23,247 nucleotides of DNA from a virus. Below the pieces are notes generated by a model that searched no databases, had not been told where the DNA came from, and was given only the letters and a program-made list of their open reading frames with translations. Where the stretch lies: IMG/VR virus record IMGVR_UViG_3300036884_000006, positions 1 through 23,247 of that record, one strand, 5' to 3'. The position numbers were made by a program, and so were the translations under genes. Position 1 is the stretch's first letter. The number at the start of each line of letters is the position of its first letter. This document shows positions 1 through 21,911 of this stretch, piece after piece.

Positions 1-511
1 CGTCACCCTGCAATTTCTCGTCAGCCGTCATCCAGACATCATACAGGCCGTCCTTCTTGAGACTGCCGTGTACGCGGTCAAGTGTGTCGGCGCGGAGGTT
101 GTTCATGCCCTGCTCTGCGCTGCCATCTATGCCCCATCCGAACTTATTGACGCCACCGGAAATCTGCGCCCGAAGATAGTCTGCGGCAGACGTTCCCTTG
201 GCCTTCAGGTCTGCGTATGTGTCCTTCAGCCGTCCAAGAATCTGCTCACGAATGCCGATGTTATTGAACGCTTCCAGACGCTTGTATTCCATGTCGCGGG
301 CGAGTTCGTCTGTGACATCCCTGATTGCGTTCTTCGTGGCGTCCACACGCGACATTTGCTTCTCACGAACATATCTATCCGTGTAGGTGTTCACCTTGTC
401 CTGAATGTCTCCGAAAGAAGTTCCGCGCAGTTTGCGCATCTTCCCATCGGTCCCCTCAAACTCCACGCTGTCGAGATAGTCCTTGAGTTGGTTAAGACAG
501 CTATCAGCCAT
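1..511 (-). CDS. Large internal virion / ejection-type protein, N-terminal part (runs off left edge)
   Basis: An uninterrupted reading frame of 170 codons starts at ATG 509-511 and continues through base 1 without a stop, so only the N-terminus is present. The start overlaps the end of the preceding ejection-protein gene by 8 bases, and a GGTGG sequence lies 5 bases before the ATG. The protein begins MADSCLNQLKDYL and is rich in charged residues with a helical look; no enzymatic motif is visible in this part. Its place, directly after the gp14/gp15-like genes, is where podophages encode their largest ejection protein (T7 gp16 position). The role is inferred from position and style only. The missing C-terminal part could carry a lytic transglycosylase or another domain. 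Confidence 0.75.
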   Translation of the reverse strand, partial: MADSCLNQLKDYLDSVEFEGTDGKMRKLRGTSFGDIQDKVNTYTDRYVREKQMSRVDATKNAIRDVTDELARDMEYKRLEAFNNIGIREQILGRLKDTYADLKAKGTSAADYLRAQISGGVNKFGWGIDGSAEQGMNNLRADTLDRVHGSLKKDGLYDVWMTADEKLQGD

Positions 512-2087
512 TGGAACCACCAAGGAAACAGGTCATAAACTGCTTGAGGCCCTTGATGACCTCTTGATTCTCGCGGTTGGCGTTCTCAATCTCCGCGACT
601 TCAGGAGTGTACTTCTCGTTGTCCAAAAGTTCCTTTGCCCTTTCGTCTAGTTCGTTCACTGCATCAGAGCGCACGGCGTCCACGGGAGGCGACTCCTTCA
701 TGTCCGTGTCACGCGCCTGTATCTTTGCTTCTTCGGTGGACGGGATTGGTTTTGCAGCTTCCTGTGCGGCATCGGTAAGACGCTGCTTGCGTGTGGCGTC
801 ATCAAGTATTCCGCCCTCAAGGGCGGACTCCGCGATGTCTTTCCCTGTAGCATCACGGAACGCAGAGTGCCACTCATCGGAACCGGGTACGAGAGATCCT
901 AGACGTTGCGCGAATTGTTCACGCCCCGGTTGCTGGTGTGCCTCAAGCCAGGCCTGATAGTACATTTCCTCGGAGGCAACACCGCCCGATGTCGGGTCAA
1001 TCGTCCCGCCGTGTTCCGTTGGCTCTATCGTGTGCGTGTCGCTGGGATGGTCGGCAAGCCATTGCTGATAATTTGATTCGTCCCATGCGCTTCGGTCAGT
1101 TTCAAGCGCATTTCCGAACATATCACGGTTAATGTCGTGGTCGAGAAGCGGCGTAATTTCTACAGGCTTCCCCTCAGCCATCTGCCCTGCGGCAACCTGC
1201 AAAGCTTCTGCCTTCGCTTCGGGCGACATGCGCTCGGCCATCATCTTCGCCGCCGCAGCAACGCGCCCGGTCAGCTTGTCCATGACGGCCCCGCCGCCCA
1301 TGTGCATGATAGACATGAACCCGGAAGCACCTATAAGGCTTTCATGGATAGCGTCATTGACGGTGTACTCGCGCCCCACGCCTTCTGACGTAGCGGCCTT
1401 AAATGCGCTTATGGGCGCCTGCATCGCAAGGCCCTCGGCAGCACCAGCAACGCCACGGAAGGCGGTGCGTGACAGGCCACCAGCGATTCCAGCCGCGCCG
1501 AACTCACCAACGGCCTCTGCCGTTGCGGGGGTCATCATCTTCAATGCTGACAGGCCACGGGCGACTGCGGCTTCCCCGGCCACGCCGCCAGCAAAGTACA
1601 TGGACGCTACGTTCACTGGGTCAAGCAACATCGCTGCAGTATCTACGCCCCACCGGGCGACAGACCGCAGAGTGCCGTCATTCTGCGCGTCTTGCAGCGT
1701 AGCCTTCTGGATGGACTGCTGCGTGTAGTTGTCGGACATGCGTTTGGCGACATCCTCCGGCAAGTCCTGGGAGAACGTGACGCCATTTCCGTAGCGGTCA
1801 GGCTTGACCCCATACCGCTCATTGGCGTCCTTTGCGGATATTACCGTCGATTGACCAAGGCCGGGGTCATCCCCGATCTGGCGCATCTGACCAGGGTTCA
1901 GTGGATCGGCCTTGTCGTAAGCGTTCTTCGCCCAATCGACGGCCCATTTCATCGTGCCAAACCAATCAGCGGTATCCAAAAGCGACGGAGAGGGCGGCGC
2001 ACCGTGGGCATGGTAGTCGCTCATCAACCCCGCAGTTGGGTCAGGCTGGTCGTAGTTGAAGTTGAGATTAGTCGGAATAGCTGGCAT
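504..2087 (-). CDS. Internal virion protein (ejection protein, gp16-like N-terminal region)
   Basis: A 527-residue protein, probably part of the internal core that is ejected with the DNA to form a channel across the cell envelope. The middle (about residues 130-290) alternates hydrophobic Ala/Gly-rich segments with the motif LLDPVNVAS and a stretch containing GREYTVNDAIHESLIGASG. That pattern is typical of internal virion proteins of T7-like phages, which often have DPVN and YT..DA motifs. The C-terminal third is charged and probably helical. I placed the start at ATG 2085-2087 because AGGA sits 5 bases upstream. The frame is open further, to ATG 2132, but that codon has no ribosome binding site and would overlap the upstream gene by 65 bases. 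ATG 2093 is a possible alternative. The gene overlaps both neighbours slightly. Confidence 0.72.
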   Translation of the reverse strand: MPAIPTNLNFNYDQPDPTAGLMSDYHAHGAPPSPSLLDTADWFGTMKWAVDWAKNAYDKADPLNPGQMRQIGDDPGLGQSTVISAKDANERYGVKPDRYGNGVTFSQDLPEDVAKRMSDNYTQQSIQKATLQDAQNDGTLRSVARWGVDTAAMLLDPVNVASMYFAGGVAGEAAVARGLSALKMMTPATAEAVGEFGAAGIAGGLSRTAFRGVAGAAEGLAMQAPISAFKAATSEGVGREYTVNDAIHESLIGASGFMSIMHMGGGAVMDKLTGRVAAAAKMMAERMSPEAKAEALQVAAGQMAEGKPVEITPLLDHDINRDMFGNALETDRSAWDESNYQQWLADHPSDTHTIEPTEHGGTIDPTSGGVASEEMYYQAWLEAHQQPGREQFAQRLGSLVPGSDEWHSAFRDATGKDIAESALEGGILDDATRKQRLTDAAQEAAKPIPSTEEAKIQARDTDMKESPPVDAVRSDAVNELDERAKELLDNEKYTPEVAEIENANRENQEVIKGLKQFMTCFLGGSNG

Positions 2088-4173
2088 TGGCATCCTGCGG
2101 CTTGGCAACCCTTGCGGCAGCGTTGAAGTCATTCATACTGAACGTAACACCCCGTCCGCGTTTGTCGCGCAGGGGGTCGCCGTTCACATAGACTGCAAGC
2201 AGATTCGGGTTGTCCTTGACGTTGCGGAACTCGGCCTGCTGCAAATAGGCGGCTGCACGGTTATTGTAGACGGCCTGCTCATTCGTGGTGGTCGGTGCGG
2301 GGAGATAACGGCTCATATCAAGATCGGAAACCTTGAGTCCGCCAATAAGGTCTGGTGCGTACTGGCGCACCATGTTCCCGTATCCAGATGGTACGATTGT
2401 CTTGGGCGAGAGGACTTCATACTTGCTTGAGAACTGCTTGAGTGCATCGCGGGTTGCCTCTGCCCACGGCATATTACTAGCGATATTTGCTGTTACCAGG
2501 GCGTCCAGGGCTTTGTATTCAGCCTGCCCGGTGGCTAGTCCCTGCTGACCCTGATAGGCAAGGCTGGCCTGTCTCGCGCTGAATGTCGGGTCGTTCTCGA
2601 TCATCTTCTGTATGCTTTTTTGCGTCCCACCATCCATAGACTCTTTCATGAGGTCATACGTGGGCTTCTTGCCGTCCTTGCTGATTGTCGTAACCTGCAA
2701 GTATTTCTGCTGCGCGTCCGGGTCAAAGTTGTCGATGGCGAAGTTCATCCCTGCGGGTACGCCGATATTCTGCATGGATTTCCTGACAGCACCTGCGTTG
2801 GGACCAGCGTTCTGGTATAACTGCGACAGGAACTGTAAAGGATTACCTGACTGTTGCGCCTGCTGCCATAACTGCTGCGCCTGTGGCGTGGTGAGCGCAC
2901 TACGCTGTTCGGATGGTATCCCCATCGCAGCCTGTGTCGCCAACTGCTTCCCGACAAGTCCAAAGGTATCCGGTGCGCCATTGGAGCGATGCGGGATGAT
3001 ATTCATTTCCGGGTATAGGAGCGCGACACCATCTGCTGCATTGCGCCCAGTGGTGTTCTGAAACACTCCCTGGATATGGTTGTACGTATCAACGAATGTC
3101 TGACCACTAATCATCCCCATTGTGTCGCCAGTTATGGGATGCTTATCGCGCAGGGCTTGTGCGCTTGCGTGGTCGCCCGACTGATCGAATAGCGCGGCCT
3201 GTACGGCATCCCTGGAGGCGGCGAACTGCACAACCTGCGCACCGTTGGACTTTGTGGGAACGGGGCCAGGCATTGCCAGGTACTTGTCGTATTGTCCCGA
3301 ATTGTAGGCCATAGACGCAGCCATCATCCGGTTATTATTTTCGACTCCAACCTTCATTTCGTCCATCATTTTGTATTGATTGATTTCTCTATCAGCAGAA
3401 GCCAGCGCACCGGGGGAGAGTGCAGACGAACCATCTTGCAAGGTCATTCCACGAAGTCCACGTGCAACAGACTCGGCGGCTTTCGTTCCTCCGTGGTCAA
3501 GTGCCTGCATGACCTGGGCATGGGCAACAGGAGATAGCAACTGACGAACAATACCGTTGGCATATGCGGCCTGCTCTTCCGGGGCAACGCCCTGCGCTAT
3601 TGCATACTGCCTTGCAGCATCGTCAAGTCTGTCCTTGTGGTACGTGATTGCCTGTGGGCCATCTGCGGCGGCGTCATCGGCAATCTGGCTCATCCCGGCC
3701 AGCATTCCCTTCTTGTGCGCCTCAACGGTCTGGTACGCAGCGTGGGAGCCAAGCTGCTCATTGACCATGACTATATTGCGCGTAGCCATGCCCTCAAACA
3801 TTTTACGTTCCATCTCGGACTGTGAGTTGGCAGCGTACTGGTTGTAAATGTCAGCGATCTTTTGCTGTGTAGCGGGGAGCGCAGCTTGCGCGTCTGTCCC
3901 TTGTAACTGCGAAAACGAGTTCTTAATGTCGGAAATGTCTTTCGACATCTTCACCCAATTTTGGGTGGCATTAGTCTCATTTGTCATGCTTTGCAAGGTA
4001 GATGCGACTTTCTGAATCGCATCGGTCCCGGCGTCAATCTTCTGTGAGCCGCCCTGTAACGCCGCACCTATCTGCCCACCGAACTCGGACGGGTCGGCGG
4101 ATACACCGGAGTACACGCCACTCGGCGCACCCTGCGCGGCAACATCGGGAACTGGACTGTATGGCAATCTCAT
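2068..4173 (-). CDS. Internal virion protein, gp15-like
   Basis: A 701-residue protein, close to the size of T7 gp15 (about 750), in the expected order after the gp14-like gene. It is mostly Gln/Ala/Ser/Asp-rich and predicted helical throughout, with no signal peptide or obvious TM segment, as expected for a soluble core component packaged in the head and ejected with the DNA. The N-terminus (MRLPYSPVPDVAAQGAP) is a proline-rich lead-in often seen in this family. AGGTG lies 6 bases before the ATG, and the previous gene stops 9 bases earlier. The gp15-like name rests on size, composition and synteny; no catalytic motif supports it. Confidence 0.72.
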   Translation of the reverse strand: MRLPYSPVPDVAAQGAPSGVYSGVSADPSEFGGQIGAALQGGSQKIDAGTDAIQKVASTLQSMTNETNATQNWVKMSKDISDIKNSFSQLQGTDAQAALPATQQKIADIYNQYAANSQSEMERKMFEGMATRNIVMVNEQLGSHAAYQTVEAHKKGMLAGMSQIADDAAADGPQAITYHKDRLDDAARQYAIAQGVAPEEQAAYANGIVRQLLSPVAHAQVMQALDHGGTKAAESVARGLRGMTLQDGSSALSPGALASADREINQYKMMDEMKVGVENNNRMMAASMAYNSGQYDKYLAMPGPVPTKSNGAQVVQFAASRDAVQAALFDQSGDHASAQALRDKHPITGDTMGMISGQTFVDTYNHIQGVFQNTTGRNAADGVALLYPEMNIIPHRSNGAPDTFGLVGKQLATQAAMGIPSEQRSALTTPQAQQLWQQAQQSGNPLQFLSQLYQNAGPNAGAVRKSMQNIGVPAGMNFAIDNFDPDAQQKYLQVTTISKDGKKPTYDLMKESMDGGTQKSIQKMIENDPTFSARQASLAYQGQQGLATGQAEYKALDALVTANIASNMPWAEATRDALKQFSSKYEVLSPKTIVPSGYGNMVRQYAPDLIGGLKVSDLDMSRYLPAPTTTNEQAVYNNRAAAYLQQAEFRNVKDNPNLLAVYVNGDPLRDKRGRGVTFSMNDFNAAARVAKPQDANASYSD

Positions 4174-5372: not shown

Positions 5373-8196
5373 TAGAATCTCCCACCACGACCTCGGGGAT
5401 AACGGCGAGGACGTTGCATGGCATGGGGTAGTCCTGCTGAATGCACACCTGTCCCGGTTTTGTCCATAGGGGTGTAATGTTGATGAGCTTGTCTCCCGTG
5501 AACAAAGGAATTGGTTGACCAGCGAGGATGTCATTGCCCCGGTCCTTGAACTCCGTCACGGTGTCGAAAGTCTGTCCGACCTTGATACCCCGACTTGCCT
5601 CAACGCGTACAGTCACCGAGTAGATATTCTTGCGCTTGCCTTGGATGGTGCTGCCACCAGCTTGCGGGGAGTCGAGATAAAGCGTCTGCAACTGCGCCTG
5701 GAACGGCAAGCCAACCGTGATAGCCGTTGCGGGGGTGGCTAGCGTCACAGACCCACCAGAAACTATCTGGCTTGGTGCTACGCTGCCATCTGCGAGAATG
5801 GCGACTGTGCATCCCTCAAGATGCCCAAGGCCCGTCACAACCGAAACTGGAGTGGTTTGCGTCCATGCCCCGGTGGGGAACGGGACGGGATTGTTGTTCG
5901 GGTCATTCGGTATGGTATCGGTAATCGGCTGCGATAACGTCACAGAAACGCTTGTGCTGCTGCTGTAGGAAGTAATCGTACCGATACCACCACCAGCGCG
6001 GATAACGTCACCCACGTTTCCGGACGAGAATACTCCAGCACTCGCCACGACGCTTGCCGAAGTGGAAGCCGAAGAGAATGTCAGGGTCGCAGCGGGAGTG
6101 TTCTGCGGGTAGCTCAATCCCGCATCGACGCACCACACGGACTCAACGTCCGTCCAGATGCGGTTGTCCATGCGCTCAACGTAGTAATACCAGTTTCCGT
6201 TGACCTTACGCTGGACAACGCAATACAGCGCATTTACCGGGGGTTCGCTGACCGTACACACGGACTTGAAAAGGCCGAAGGTGTCATGCCGCGCCCAGGC
6301 GTAAATGTCCTGTTCCTTGAGATACGTGAACGACAGGAGTACGCCGTCATCACGGACGCACCAGACAATCTTGTACGGCTCTTCGCACCAGGCCCATTGG
6401 AGAATCGTGTTCGTGGCGAACAGGTGATTCGACAGGACGGACATATCTGTGCCCGTGTAAATTTGCGCGTAGAAGTTGTACGACAAGTCGCGCACAACGC
6501 TACCCTTCTCCTGAACGTAGAGAATGTCATAGTTGACGGTAATCGGTGGAACCTGCGCGTTGCAGCCGTTGTAAGCCTGCGGAGTAGCAACCTGCTGCGA
6601 GGGCGTAACAGCCGTGCCATTCGCGCCGCCGCTTATCTGCCACGCACCACCACCCGTCAGGACAACCATGCCCCCCGGCATCGGAACCATCGCTTGTACG
6701 CCGTTCACCTGCTGCGCCCACGGAGTACCCTGAATGGCATCATCATCCTGTACGGGCGTCGAAACGTCGAAGTTCGCGTACTGCCCCGGCTTGCTCATCC
6801 TGTATGTGTCAGGTGCATTCGGGGTGTTGGCGAACACCTTGCGTTGCTGGAAATAGGCCACGGTGCTTGGATACGTCCCGGTGGACTTCCCGATAACAAG
6901 GATTGCCGTGGCACTCGTTCCGTCAGCCGTGAACGTTATTGTGTCGCCAGCGGCATATCCGCTGCCCCCATTCTGGACGATAACTGCGCTGACAGCACCA
7001 CCAGTGATAACTGGCAACAAAACAGCACCACTACCCGTCGAGGTCGTGATGCTGTACGTTACGCCAGTCTGCGTGTACCCGGAGCCACCAGCGGTAATAG
7101 TCACGCTGGAAATGGGGGATATGGCGAACGGGTTGCTATGGGTCGGTGGCGAATGGGTAGCGTCAGCGGTGATGTTCGTGTCCACAAACGACAGGCCATA
7201 GGCCGTGCCGATGTACGAGAACTGCGAACCAACCGGGACGGTAGAGTTGTACGCGGGGGGGGCCATGAAGATATTGTACGACGTAGACCCCGTGACGGCG
7301 GGCCAGGAAATGTTGTTGCTTCCCGATACCACGGCGATATCTACGCTGTTCGTAATCGTCCCCACGGGCGACGGGACACTCTCCTGACCGTTGGCGTCAA
7401 CCGCAGTCACACAGTAGGAGTAGCAAGTCTTGAGGCTGGCCGTGGTATTGTTCGCAGCCGTAGTGATACTGGCCGGGGCCGCAATCGTGCTAGCAAATGT
7501 GATAGCCGTCAGCGACCATGAGGCCGTCCCGGTGCGCTTCAGGTCATATGGCGGGTAACTCGGATGCACAAACGTCATCGTATCCGCAGACTGCGTGAAC
7601 TTGAGTAGCGGAAGGTCAGCGACAGCCCACGGTGTTACGAGTGTGTAGATTCGTGCTACCGTGCCACCGCTGGCATAGGCTGTGTACGAGGTCGAGTCGA
7701 TATTGCCGCCGCCCACGGGATTAGTCAGCGTGAACGTGTTGGCGGCAGAATTGGCGACAATGAAGGTCTGCCCGTTCAGTTGCGTCATGCCGGAGATTCC
7801 CGTGATATACACGGCATCCCCGTTAGAGAACCCATGAGAGTTTGACGTAATCTGGCACGGATTGGCTTTGGATGCACCAGTTATCGTCTTACTCGCTTCG
7901 ACTACATACGCGCCATTGGCGATTACCCGCATGTACAGGTTACCGAACTCAAGCGCATAACTCTGCGTACTATTGAACACAAATGGAATAAGGCGCGGTG
8001 GCAGTCCCGTTCCTGCCTGTTCGGACACGCCAATAAAGTGCGTCCCGGCCCGCGAAGCAGCACCGCCGCGATAGTTCACGAACATATTGCGCATCGTGGC
8101 TGCGCCAGTGCGGTACTTCGCCAGGTCAACACGCCCGTACAAAGACGGCGAGAGTTCACCGGACGCGAAGCTAGGCTGGATAAGCGATATGGTCAT
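5365..8196 (-). CDS. Tail nozzle / tail tubular protein B-like protein
   Basis: A 943-residue protein, the distal tail tube (nozzle) of podoviruses, T7 gp12-like. The N-terminus has the family signature (PSFASGELSPSLYGRVDL, then RNMFVNYRGGAASRAGT). Residues about 100-182 match the FCCH-type beta domain often inserted in these tail proteins (ITSNSHGFSNGDAVYITG and NTFTLTNP). Residues about 240-345 form a fibronectin III-like domain (YSYCVTAVDANGQESVPSP). Residues about 363-437 hold two GGSGY-type beta repeats. After these come QQRKVFANTPNAPDTYRMS and the rest of the conserved core. It is longer than T7 gp12 (about 794), and the inserts account for the difference. GGGAG/GGAG lies 4 bases before the ATG. 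It follows the adaptor and a structural gene, as expected for tail assembly. Confidence 0.9.
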   Translation of the reverse strand: MTISLIQPSFASGELSPSLYGRVDLAKYRTGAATMRNMFVNYRGGAASRAGTHFIGVSEQAGTGLPPRLIPFVFNSTQSYALEFGNLYMRVIANGAYVVEASKTITGASKANPCQITSNSHGFSNGDAVYITGISGMTQLNGQTFIVANSAANTFTLTNPVGGGNIDSTSYTAYASGGTVARIYTLVTPWAVADLPLLKFTQSADTMTFVHPSYPPYDLKRTGTASWSLTAITFASTIAAPASITTAANNTTASLKTCYSYCVTAVDANGQESVPSPVGTITNSVDIAVVSGSNNISWPAVTGSTSYNIFMAPPAYNSTVPVGSQFSYIGTAYGLSFVDTNITADATHSPPTHSNPFAISPISSVTITAGGSGYTQTGVTYSITTSTGSGAVLLPVITGGAVSAVIVQNGGSGYAAGDTITFTADGTSATAILVIGKSTGTYPSTVAYFQQRKVFANTPNAPDTYRMSKPGQYANFDVSTPVQDDDAIQGTPWAQQVNGVQAMVPMPGGMVVLTGGGAWQISGGANGTAVTPSQQVATPQAYNGCNAQVPPITVNYDILYVQEKGSVVRDLSYNFYAQIYTGTDMSVLSNHLFATNTILQWAWCEEPYKIVWCVRDDGVLLSFTYLKEQDIYAWARHDTFGLFKSVCTVSEPPVNALYCVVQRKVNGNWYYYVERMDNRIWTDVESVWCVDAGLSYPQNTPAATLTFSSASTSASVVASAGVFSSGNVGDVIRAGGGIGTITSYSSSTSVSVTLSQPITDTIPNDPNNNPVPFPTGAWTQTTPVSVVTGLGHLEGCTVAILADGSVAPSQIVSGGSVTLATPATAITVGLPFQAQLQTLYLDSPQAGGSTIQGKRKNIYSVTVRVEASRGIKVGQTFDTVTEFKDRGNDILAGQPIPLFTGDKLINITPLWTKPGQVCIQQDYPMPCNVLAVIPEVVVGDSNG

Positions 8197-20425: not shown

Positions 20426-20674
20426 CTAAACCACCCGTTCCAATTTGCCCCGGTGGCAGGCAGGACAGATCCCCATCTGGTTCACAACCCAAATCCCACA
20501 CACGCGACAACGGAAAACATACTCATCGCAGGTAACTTCGTCAGTTTGGCCCGAATAATGCCCGCACTCTTCATCAGGGACATAGCTGAAACCAGATGGG
20601 AGAGATTCACGCCGCGAGAACATTTCCTCCGCATGGCCGTACTCTCCCGCATCCATCGCCTCAAATCTGTCCAA
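20426..20674 (-). CDS. Zinc-ribbon protein, first gene of the leftward operon (TTG start)
   Basis: An 82-residue protein with four cysteines in two pairs, CRVCG (residues about 56-60) and CPACHRG (about 69-75), forming a zinc ribbon; a further CGHYSG and a Cys (VTCDEY) lie upstream. The N-terminal half is acidic. The start is TTG 20672-20674, with a strong AGGAG 6 bases upstream. The nearest ATG, at residue 7, lacks a suitable ribosome binding site. Zinc ribbons of this size bind nucleic acid or protein partners. As the first gene behind the late leader it could be regulatory, but nothing in the sequence proves that. Confidence 0.65.
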   Translation of the reverse strand: MDRFEAMDAGEYGHAEEMFSRRESLPSGFSYVPDEECGHYSGQTDEVTCDEYVFRCRVCGIWVVNQMGICPACHRGKLERVV

Positions 20675-20711
20675 CCAATTCTCCTAGTGCGCCCCTAGTG
20701 GACACCTTCTC

Positions 20712-20740
20712 AAAAAAATAAAGCCCCCCTAGAAGGGAAA
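20712..20740 (-). terminator. Terminator-like hairpin with U-run, upstream of first late gene
   Basis: Read on the minus strand, TTTCCCT (20740-20734), loop TCT and AGGGGGG (20730-20724) form a 7-pair stem with three G-U pairs. It is followed by C, then TTTATTTTTTT (20722-20712). This has the form of an intrinsic terminator, but it stands in front of the late operon, between the candidate promoters and the zinc-ribbon gene. It could end a short transcript, act as an attenuator, or be overcome by antitermination. The stem is short, so strength is uncertain. Confidence 0.5.
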
Positions 20741-20930
20741 TGCCTTACGCTAATGCGTTTCACTTCTTCAGTCACAGAATTATCAGCCCTGGACACCCTG
20801 CTGTCCCATCACTGGGCGCTACCCGGCAGAACGGGTTTCATAGTCTTTGTTACCAAGAAGGGGCTGTTTATCCGTCCGTGGCTAGCGACCTACCACTATC
20901 GGCGTCCGGGGGACCTACTCTCAATTTCTT
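20741..20930 (-). ncRNA. Candidate structured leader RNA or small RNA
   Basis: A noncoding stretch between the candidate promoter and the terminator-like hairpin, with an unusual density of hairpins. Pairs, in + strand coordinates: GTCC/GGAC (20904-20907 with 20911-20914); CAGCCC/GGGCTG (20784-20789 with 20861-20866), closing a branched region; ACCCG/CGGGT (20821-20825 with 20832-20836); CCCA/TGGG (20805-20808 with 20813-20816), whose loop reads GTGA on the minus strand (a GNRA loop); GGACA/TGTCC (20791-20795 with 20802-20806), which competes with the previous stem; and ACGC/GCGT (20747-20750 with 20755-20758). I recognise no known RNA family. Confidence 0.4.
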
Positions 20931-20936
20931 CCAACT

Positions 20937-20966
20937 ATCATGTACAGAAAACGTGTCACTTGTCAA
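20937..20966 (-). promoter_or_regulatory. Candidate sigma70-type promoter for the late operon
   Basis: On the minus strand a perfect -35 box TTGACA (20966-20961) is followed, after 18 bases, by CATGAT (20942-20937), a four-of-six match to the -10 box. Transcription would start near 20930, giving a leader of about 255 bases before the TTG start of the first gene. This is the best leftward promoter in the region. A phage-specific polymerase or activator could also act here, but cannot be seen from sequence. Confidence 0.55.
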
Positions 20967-20989
20967 GATAAAAATAGCACGTTTCACCC

Positions 20990-21010
20990 AAAATTATAAA
21001 AAAAATTATA
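20990..21010. repeat. AT-rich island with tandem AAAATTATA
   Basis: The 9-base unit AAAATTATA occurs at 20990-20998 and 21002-21010, 12 bases apart and joined by an A-run. The segment is much more AT-rich than the rest of the window. Read on the minus strand, each unit carries a perfect TATAAT. It may therefore be a promoter element, a DNA-melting site of an origin, or both. Confidence 0.6.
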
Positions 21011-21033
21011 CGGGAATACGCTGCAAACGGAAA
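21005..21033 (-). promoter_or_regulatory. Second candidate leftward promoter (perfect -10 box)
   Basis: On the minus strand, TATAAT (21010-21005) is a perfect -10 hexamer, preceded after 17 bases by TTTCCG (21033-21028), which matches the -35 box at only three positions. It would need an activator or give a weak start. It is arranged in tandem with the TTGACA promoter about 65 bases further along. Confidence 0.35.
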
Positions 21034-21248
21034 CAGCGTGGGCGGGTGTGTGAGAAACTAGCTGCGGTGGGTGGCGCATGGGACTCCGGCCATGCCAACG
21101 GCGAAGTATCCCCCCCGTTTTGGCCCTCGCTGATTGGTCCTAGTACCGTTTGCCAGGTGCAGCTCCACGGTGCGCTACAGTCAATGCGGAGGAACAGCCC
21201 CTCCCTCACATCGGGCGGCCATGTCCTCGCTATCGCTGCGCTATCTCT
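21018..21248. other. Noncoding stretch with scattered inverted repeats
   Basis: No credible gene is visible. I see short hairpins: ACGCTG/CAGCGT (21018-21023 with 21034-21039), GCATGG/CCATGC (21076-21081 with 21090-21095), and a GGAGG/CCTCC pair near 21188-21204. An open frame of 175 codons crosses this stretch on the plus strand, but its composition is not protein-like and it runs over both candidate promoters. The stretch separates the leftward promoters from the repeat cluster. Confidence 0.5.
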
Positions 21249-21250
21249 AG

Positions 21251-21282
21251 TGATACTGCGGGCATGATACCAGCAGTGATAC
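21251..21282 (+). repeat. Three TGATAC direct repeats
   Basis: TGATAC occurs at 21251-21256, 21265-21270 and 21277-21282, that is every 12-14 bases, about one helical turn. The last two units extend to ATGATACCA/GTGATACCA. Direct repeats with helical spacing commonly bind a replication initiator or regulator, but the protein is not identified here. Confidence 0.5.
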
Positions 21283-21294
21283 CACGAGGCGCCC

Positions 21295-21318
21295 AGTTGT
21301 CCGGTTAGTTGTACGGTT
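21295..21318 (+). repeat. 12-bp tandem duplication
   Basis: AGTTGTCCGGTT (21295-21306) is followed immediately by AGTTGTACGGTT (21307-21318), two copies with a single difference. It is 12 bases downstream of the TGATAC repeats and belongs to the same repeat-rich stretch. It could be a protein-binding site or a slipped duplication. Confidence 0.65.
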
Positions 21319-21428
21319 GACGAGTAGCCTGGAGCGGCACCAGAAGGCCAGCGATGAATATAAGGATAGCTTGATATAGGCCGGGAACCGTTGGCATTGG
21401 ATGAAATAGATATCGGCGCGTGGCTGAA

Positions 21429-21486
21429 CTACTCACACGAATTTGCGCTCACTCACACGGTTCTGACCCATCTACTCACACGAATT
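21429..21486 (+). repeat. Three ACTCACACG repeats (iteron-like)
   Basis: CTACTCACACGAATT occurs twice (21429-21443 and 21472-21486), and a shorter ACTCACACG lies between them (21451-21459). The starts of the 9-base core are 20 and 23 bases apart, near two helical turns, so bound proteins would sit on about the same face of the DNA. Such arrays are typical of initiator-binding iterons, operators, or transposase-binding ends of some insertion sequences. No transposase gene is present. Confidence 0.7.
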
Positions 21487-21534
21487 GCAGTCCAATGCTG
21501 CTTATTTGTCTGATTTTTCGGACTACGCCTAATA

Positions 21535-21551
21535 ATCCATTATTAATGGAT
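21535..21551. repeat. Perfect 17-bp palindrome
   Basis: ATCCATTA (21535-21542), one central T, then TAATGGAT (21544-21551) form a perfect inverted repeat. This is the size and symmetry of an operator for a dimeric repressor. It lies about 150 bases before the rightward promoter, within the divergent control region. Confidence 0.7.
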
Positions 21552-21553
21552 CC

Positions 21554-21563
21554 GCCACGTGGC
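21554..21563. repeat. Perfect 10-bp palindrome
   Basis: GCCACGTGGC is self-complementary over all 10 bases and begins only 2 bases after the 17-bp palindrome. An imperfect inverted repeat follows at 21570-21590 (GCCC, T, CGG, five-base loop, CCG, T, GGGC). The three symmetrical elements in 56 bases suggest a protein-binding cluster. Confidence 0.55.
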
Positions 21564-21704
21564 CTGTAAGCCCTCGGAGCTGCCGTGGGCATACTCTAGC
21601 ATGGTGCGACCGCGTGGCTTGTCTGAGGTCATGTGAGGATTGTTGGTGCCGTAGGGGTTGCGGAGTATTTTTAATTTATTTTGTCTGCTAGTGCATTTTT
21701 TTTG

Positions 21705-21734
21705 TTGACAAGGTTCTGGCGAGTAGTTAAATAT
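21705..21734 (+). promoter_or_regulatory. Candidate sigma70-type promoter for the rightward genes
   Basis: A perfect -35 box TTGACA (21705-21710) is followed after 16 bases by TTAAAT (21727-21732), a four-of-six match to the -10 box; the wider TTAAATAT is AT-rich. The start site would be near 21740, about 40 bases before the first rightward ORF. A T-run lies just upstream (21696-21703), as an UP-like AT-rich element might. It diverges from the leftward promoters about 740 bases away. Confidence 0.6.
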
Positions 21735-21780
21735 CTGCTTAGCGGGACAATGAAACACTAACCATCGAGGCAAGTATGAA

Positions 21781-21909
21781 ATGGACGCTAACACCTGCTA
21801 CAACCTGGCCGCTTGGCTTTTGGCCCTGATAGTGGCCGGAGTACTGGCTACGGCCACAACGTACCACGCACCGAACCGCAGAACGGATGAACCTAAGAAG
21901 AGGGGGTAA
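21781..21909 (+). CDS. Small single-TM peptide (42 residues)
   Basis: A 42-codon ORF, MDANTCYNLAAWLLALIVAG.., with one clear TM helix (about residues 8-28) and a basic, polar tail ending DEPKKRG. It ends 2 bases before the next start, and its last codons contain the AGAGGGGG ribosome binding site of that gene, so it sits in the transcript like a real first gene. GAGG lies 10 bases before the ATG; an out-of-frame ATG 4 bases earlier gives only 17 codons. I do not recognise it. A small membrane peptide at the head of an early operon could act on the host membrane or on superinfection, but that is inference. Confidence 0.5.
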   Translation: MDANTCYNLAAWLLALIVAGVLATATTYHAPNRRTDEPKKRG

Positions 21910-21911
21910 TC

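Follow-up and report, generated by a model that had tools for sequence, protein, structure and literature searches.

A candidate termination/antitermination leader before the late operon of a podophage, with a predicted RNA fold that seems to recur in a second phage lineage

The window analysed here is a whole 23.2-kb virus record (IMG/VR IMGVR_UViG_3300036884_000006, 23,247 nucleotides) of a podophage, whose minus-strand genes run from about 20,674 to 1 and encode tail proteins, the capsid, the portal, the large and small terminase subunits, a holin and a lysozyme. Together they form a late operon of about 20 kb for lysis, DNA packaging and the virion. Plus-strand genes from 21,781 (a 42-aa ORF), 21,912 and 22,460 diverge from this late set and seem to open the early region, about 1.3 kb into which the contig stops; the gene at 21,912 matches DUF7249 (E = 9.5e-8). 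Early and late sets are separated by 1.1-1.2 kb in which neither strand has a called gene, and the leader region described below occupies the left end of this interval, immediately preceding the late operon. No coding was found in 20675-21911 on either strand, except for the possible 42-aa ORF from 21781, and a 175-aa plus-strand ORF (20740-21267) has no family match. The first late gene encodes an 82-aa protein with a possible zinc ribbon (Pfam PF09723, E = 3.6e-4, below the cut-off), and its TTG start, as given in a preliminary description of this DNA, is borne out by the Shine-Dalgarno sequence in front of it (Table 1). A 542-aa protein from the distal end of the late operon (504-2132, minus strand) has no PHROG match, while the neighbouring structural genes were matched. 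Besides, two other phages (L117 and L122) carry, like the window, a DUF7249 early gene that is divergent from a terminase operon.

Table 1. Coordinates of the predicted features in and around the late leader (window positions)
Feature	Positions	Strand	Remarks
Early (rightward) promoter region	21691..21733	+	Same upstream stretch as late promoter; TTGACA at 21705-21710
22-bp stretch ending in TTGACAAG	20959..20980	-	Upstream of and including the late -35; repeated at the early promoter
Promoter-like site TTGACA-18-CATGAT	20937..20966	-	10/12 consensus bases; predicted start near 20930
Predicted leader RNA	20712..20930	-	About 215-219 nt if terminated; from promoter and terminator positions; no coding
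Rod, 5' strand	20901..20921	-	Pairs with 20797-20776; unconstrained MFE of first 155 nt
AGGUCCCCC	20908..20916	-	Can pair with the terminator's GGGGGGCUUU (20729-20720)
Hairpin A, GUGGUAG-GUCG-CUAGCCAC	20878..20896	-	Counterpart in L017: GCCCC-AGGCC-GGGGC
ACGGAUAAAC strand, 10 nt	20866..20875	-	Identical in L017 and L018, same place
Hairpin B, ACCCG-UUCUGC-CGGGU	20821..20836	-	P 0.89-0.96
Hairpin C, CCCA-GUGA-UGGG	20805..20816	-	GUGA (GNRA) loop; P 0.89-0.96
Rod, 3' strand	20776..20797	-	Unconstrained MFE of first 155 nt
Intrinsic-terminator stem-loop, 12 pairs	20719..20747	-	U7 next at 20718-20712
Shine-Dalgarno AGGAG	20681..20685	-	6 nt before TTG 20674; from sequence
First late-operon gene, 82-aa protein	20426..20674	-	Start TTG 20674

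The TTGACA promoter proposed earlier for the late genes was recovered as a promoter-like site on the minus strand, with an A/T-rich stretch above its -35 element. Its -10 element (CATGAT) is weak, and TTGACA alone is no more frequent in the window than expected by chance. The 22-bp stretch that lies upstream of, and includes, the late -35 has a second copy at 21691-21712 on the plus strand, which points into the early genes and is identical at 18/22 positions; nowhere else in the window does a copy reach 16/22. Since the late and early promoters share this upstream module, the host polymerase probably transcribes from both, and its doing so would call for a block after initiation. Between the leader core and the operon, the only promoter-like site is GGGACA-17-GATAAT at 20807, a weak one with 9/12 consensus bases. 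With regard to a sigma-dependent promoter-proximal pause as in lambda, inspection by eye of the first 25 transcribed bases revealed no clear -10-like element. In addition, a perfect inverted repeat, AAACGTG-22 nt-CACGTTT (20949-20984), surrounds the late -35; even with up to 3 mismatches allowed, the window has no second copy of this repeat, which is a possible repressor or activator site.

An intrinsic terminator, reading UAAGGC-(AU)-UUCCCU-UCU-AGGGGG-GCUUUA and then U7, sits 37 bases before the first late gene. This terminator is better than chance: its d'Aubenton-Carafa score (D = -0.4) is the second best on the minus strand, its U-tract score is the highest of either strand, and only 4 of 400 dinucleotide shuffles of a 326-nt region and 1 of 150 shuffles of a 1,237-nt region were as good, while a simple consensus scan gave no excess of terminators (7 vs 4.9 +/- 2.1). 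The preliminary description had seen here a 7-pair G/U-rich hairpin with a U-run and had called it terminator-like, yet the seven pairs are the top of a 12-pair hairpin.

The leader between promoter and terminator had also been called hairpin-rich, but structure beyond the level of chance was not confirmed. Its predicted stability does not exceed that of shuffled sequence (z = 0.14 for the 236-nt leader, z = -0.5 for the core) and the z scores of its 80-nt windows are scattered around zero; since the leader folds no better than its shuffles, a count of its hairpins cannot be taken as a sign of function. For the first 155 nt, the predicted fold is well defined and is composed of a rod near the 5' end and a branched head. 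From a 5-bp base, the rod proceeds through GUC:GAU, CCC:GGG with a two-base CU bulge, and GGACGCC:GGUGUCC, with pair probabilities of 0.62-0.99, whereupon the head follows with hairpin A, the strand ACGGAUAAAC, hairpin B and hairpin C, the last being the minus-strand stem with a GNRA loop that had already been noted.

Inspection of the sequence upstream of the terminase genes in TerL relatives led to a comparable leader in two near-identical phage contigs, L017 (IMGVR_UViG_3300012085_000004) and L018 (IMGVR_UViG_3300012144_000124), whose TerL is ~46% identical to that of the window. In these contigs, a leader of 230 nt follows TTGACA-18-TAATAT or TAACAT and precedes the small terminase gene, with the same promoter distance and the same predicted fold (rod near +1, branched head and ACGGAUAAAC). 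The L017 leader is more stable than 200/200 of its own shuffles (z = -2.65). The rod of its best fold consists of CCGCCGCGG:UCGCGGCGG, UGUC:GAUA, CCC:GGG with a two-base UC bulge, CGA:UCG and GCGCCGAUC:GAUUGGCGC, and the elements of its head come in the same order as in the window. Conversely, the window carries the features of the L017/L018 leader group that we propose here, that is, the rod near +1 with GUC:GAU and CCC:GGG, hairpin A, ACGGAUAAAC and hairpin C, of which hairpin A has 3/5 pairs changed on both sides between the window and L017/L018, and hairpin C has the counterpart CCCC-UCAA-GGGG in L017. The terminators of L017 and L018 are weak and unconvincing (D = -27 and -44, respectively).

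The likeness was evaluated with the leaders anchored at their promoters. In the comparison of whole-leader sequences from the -35 onwards, which covered 477 TTGACA sites in the loci retrieved, L018 and L017 took ranks 1 and 2 with each of three scoring schemes, and 0-3 of 2,000 sequence shuffles matched their likeness to the window. By predicted structure, L018 and L017 again came first and second in tree distance among 803 promoter-anchored segments; the MFE mountain distance placed them third and fourth, and the ensemble mountain distance fourth and thirteenth. Of 500 structure shuffles, 0 and 2 were as close. The preliminary description had named covariance in relatives as a check, and this came out in part. 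A model-fitted alignment of the window with L017/L018 has 97.8% of cells paired and 8 pairs that differ on both sides, compared with 0-1 double-sided changes for sliding partners, counts for which the alignment was fitted to the L017 structure and which come from effectively two independent sequences. Significance of the model, on the other hand, was not reached: a covariance model built from L017/L018 only reached 7.2 bits on the window leader (E = 2.6 in the window), below chance hits and below the 7.9 bits of a wrong-strand control, albeit with the match in the right place and at full length. Unanchored local alignment of the window and L017 leaders was unremarkable as well (rank 265 of 15,664). 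As L017 was picked after inspection of ~17 late leaders, we estimate the overall significance at the order of 0.01-0.02. On these two independent sequences, we consider it likely that the window leader is akin to the leader of L017 and L018.

Further members of this group were found neither in 764 genomes searched with a motif pattern nor in 297 genomes searched with a three-sequence model. Comparison of the leader DNA with 50,697 phage records gave no match, and a leader 17-mer had 7 matches in all viral contigs, roughly as many as expected by chance, at sites that did not otherwise resemble the leader. The first two late proteins and the capsid retrieved no relatives when used as bait, and an alignment-based TerL scan yielded relatives of up to 58% identity, none of them with the leader; it is absent from the closest TerL relatives (L143-L220), and six upstream regions of TerL relatives were inspected by eye. 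The late leaders of L014, L108, L109 and the podophage vB_PaeP_YA3 are without the fold (tree distances 116-138 vs 70-72 for L017/L018). Moreover, covariance models of 4,227 Rfam families gave no match above the gathering threshold in the window. The leader RNA fold is thus absent from Rfam and is probably common to one other distant phage lineage.

Two known kinds of RNA were considered and rejected. Skipping-rope RNA (RF02924), which is found in phages, has a weak full-length match inside the L017 leader (6466-6536, plus strand) that keeps the conserved GAGAU, but its 18.1 bits lie below the 36.7-bit cut-off and the window leader has no match. This identity was dismissed, as the match is weak and restricted to L017 and weak matches occur in unrelated control genomes too; the one above-cut-off match in Desulfobacterota (L139) bore no resemblance to the leader on inspection, and another falls in a dnaJ-like gene. 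A packaging RNA like the phi29 pRNA came into consideration because the L017 RNA adjoins terminase genes, and was discarded in view of the ordinary small and large terminase genes of that phage, no phi29-type context being seen.

In phage lambda, the Q protein lets polymerase that started at pR' pass the terminator tR', and the 6S leader RNA between them is ~194 nt long. The window resembles this system in its predicted sigma70-type promoter, ~200-nt leader and intrinsic terminator directly before the late operon; unlike in lambda, the late operon is divergent from the early genes and a folded RNA is predicted. Lambda Q loads via DNA and a sigma-dependent pause (PMC4604602). A Q-pR'-tR' reading has also been published for YA3, where the terminator lies 224 nt behind the late promoter (PMC7326022). 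The YA3 portal protein is 37% identical to that of the window, and before the YA3 late genes we find a promoter-like site, TTGACC-17-TAGGAT, and a terminator with D = 27 (record 43816-43834), while its leader, unlike the window's, does not have the shared fold (tree distance 116). In L014, a promoter at 6138 is followed by terminators at 6298-6322 and 6368-6398 and by the first late gene at 6610. The order of promoter, leader, terminator and late operon, which lambda, YA3 and L014 have alike, favours control by termination and antitermination. We therefore lean towards reading the region as a late-operon control leader of this type, with a fold that is present in at least one other lineage. 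Of the antitermination or attenuator leader suggested earlier, the layout stands, and the structured nature of the leader gains support from L017/L018, not from folding energy; the exact fold proposed is not the one with the best support.

According to this termination/antitermination reading, we infer an active host-sigma70-type promoter that would make a leader RNA of ~215 nt, most transcripts normally ending at the intrinsic terminator, short of the first late gene. An antiterminator acting late in infection would let polymerase read into the ~20 kb of late genes, and the fold of the first ~155 nt, rod and branched head together, probably takes part in the decision. The leader would then probably be a switch that keeps the late genes off until late infection. 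Neither a Q gene nor any other antiterminator gene was recognised in the window, a fragment that covers only the start of the early region, and the Q families PF06530 and PF03589 are absent both from it and from the L017 phage. In many environmental phages a late-gene regulator cannot be recognised; a leader RNA identifiable from position and fold would help to study how such phages time lysis and packaging, besides being a testable candidate for RNA-based antitermination outside the lambda-like phages. If only lambda-type control is at work, its layout would be extended to a deeply diverged podophage.

We also asked whether the RNA might suffice by itself, its folded 5' part binding polymerase like HK022 put, so that the enzyme passes the leader's own terminator and later ones with no phage protein, and the control being exerted at the promoter. 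Antitermination by put is protein-free and works through the beta' zinc-binding domain of RNA polymerase. The put RNA is ~70 nt long with two stem-loops and belongs to early operons, with putL lying just downstream of its promoter (PMC9378689); the window likewise has a folded RNA right behind a phage promoter, possibly acting on its own polymerase. The fold begins near +1, would be complete before the terminator, and has a similar counterpart in L017/L018, whose phage is without either Q family searched. Nevertheless, the core in the window is a ~155-nt branched rod that precedes a late operon and has its own terminator, and a constitutive antiterminator right before a terminator would be hard to make sense of unless regulated, and we regard antitermination by RNA only as unlikely. 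More speculative is the notion of a new late-leader RNA class, defined by the ~155-nt rod, the branched head and the conserved ACGGAUAAAC, that would be transcribed from the very start of the late promoter in distantly related phages and would, in place of Q, remodel host polymerase to read the entire late operon; we consider it improbable.

Two exclusive folds had been predicted to hinge on AGCCCC. Two such folds do emerge, but through another strand: the strongest alternative partner of the terminator G-run is GGUCCCCC near +16, and the predicted switching strand is AGGUCCCCC, whose duplex with the G-run comprises 9 pairs in the window (-15.4 kcal/mol); the value for L017/L018 is -11.0 kcal/mol. 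The pairing AGCCCC:GGGCU is seen in some sub-folds, and within the first 155 nt the GGG of GGGCU pairs mostly with CCC 20911-20909 (P 0.62). On folding at growing lengths, the rod is the best fold until nt 203, and once the terminator G-run is transcribed, the MFE switches to the AGGUCCCCC:G-run pairing, which would disrupt both rod and terminator. This behaviour would suit an attenuator in which the late genes are off when GGUCCCCC is held in the rod and on when it is paired with the G-run, the choice depending on a ligand, a protein or how fast transcription proceeds. The end of the L017 leader, GGGGGGCUU, is complementary to GUCCCC near +15, and this pair also exists in L018. However, rod and local terminator would form first during transcription, the L017 MFE does not switch, and G-runs readily find C-rich partners in a C-rich leader, all of which makes such an attenuator rather improbable.

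We give still less weight to an independent ~215-nt small RNA acting elsewhere, with late transcription starting from a promoter below the terminator. A terminated transcript is indeed predicted and the rod is a self-contained fold, but between core and operon there is only the weak site at 20807, and the RNA of L017/L018 lies directly before the terminase genes with no clear terminator. Lastly, that the terminator insulates the late genes from stray leftward transcription, with an incidental fold and a chance likeness to L017/L018, would accord with the unexceptional stability of the leader, the non-significant unanchored sequence search and covariance model and the missing leader in L143-L220, but is highly improbable given position-anchored tests that are hard to reach by chance and a promoter that aims straight into the terminator.

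Several repeats were observed in the non-coding gap and in the L014 leader. The sequence CTACTCACACGAATT occurs twice, 43 bp apart, in 21429-21486 (plus strand), with a third related copy, CTCACTCACACGG, in between; these iteron-like repeats are perhaps a replication origin or an operator. TGATAC is present in three copies, at spacings of 14 and 12 bp (TGATACTGCGGGCATGATACCAGCAGTGATAC), in 21251-21282 (plus strand), and a 16-bp inverted repeat of 88% connects CGGATAAACAGCCCCT in the leader (20859-20874) with CGGAGGAACAGCCCCT on the plus strand (21187-21202), 312 bp apart. The podophage late leader of L014 (6095-6640), which starts with TTGACT-16-TAAAAT, continues behind its two terminators with an extended series of GTAACGTTAC-type repeats that precedes the first late gene.
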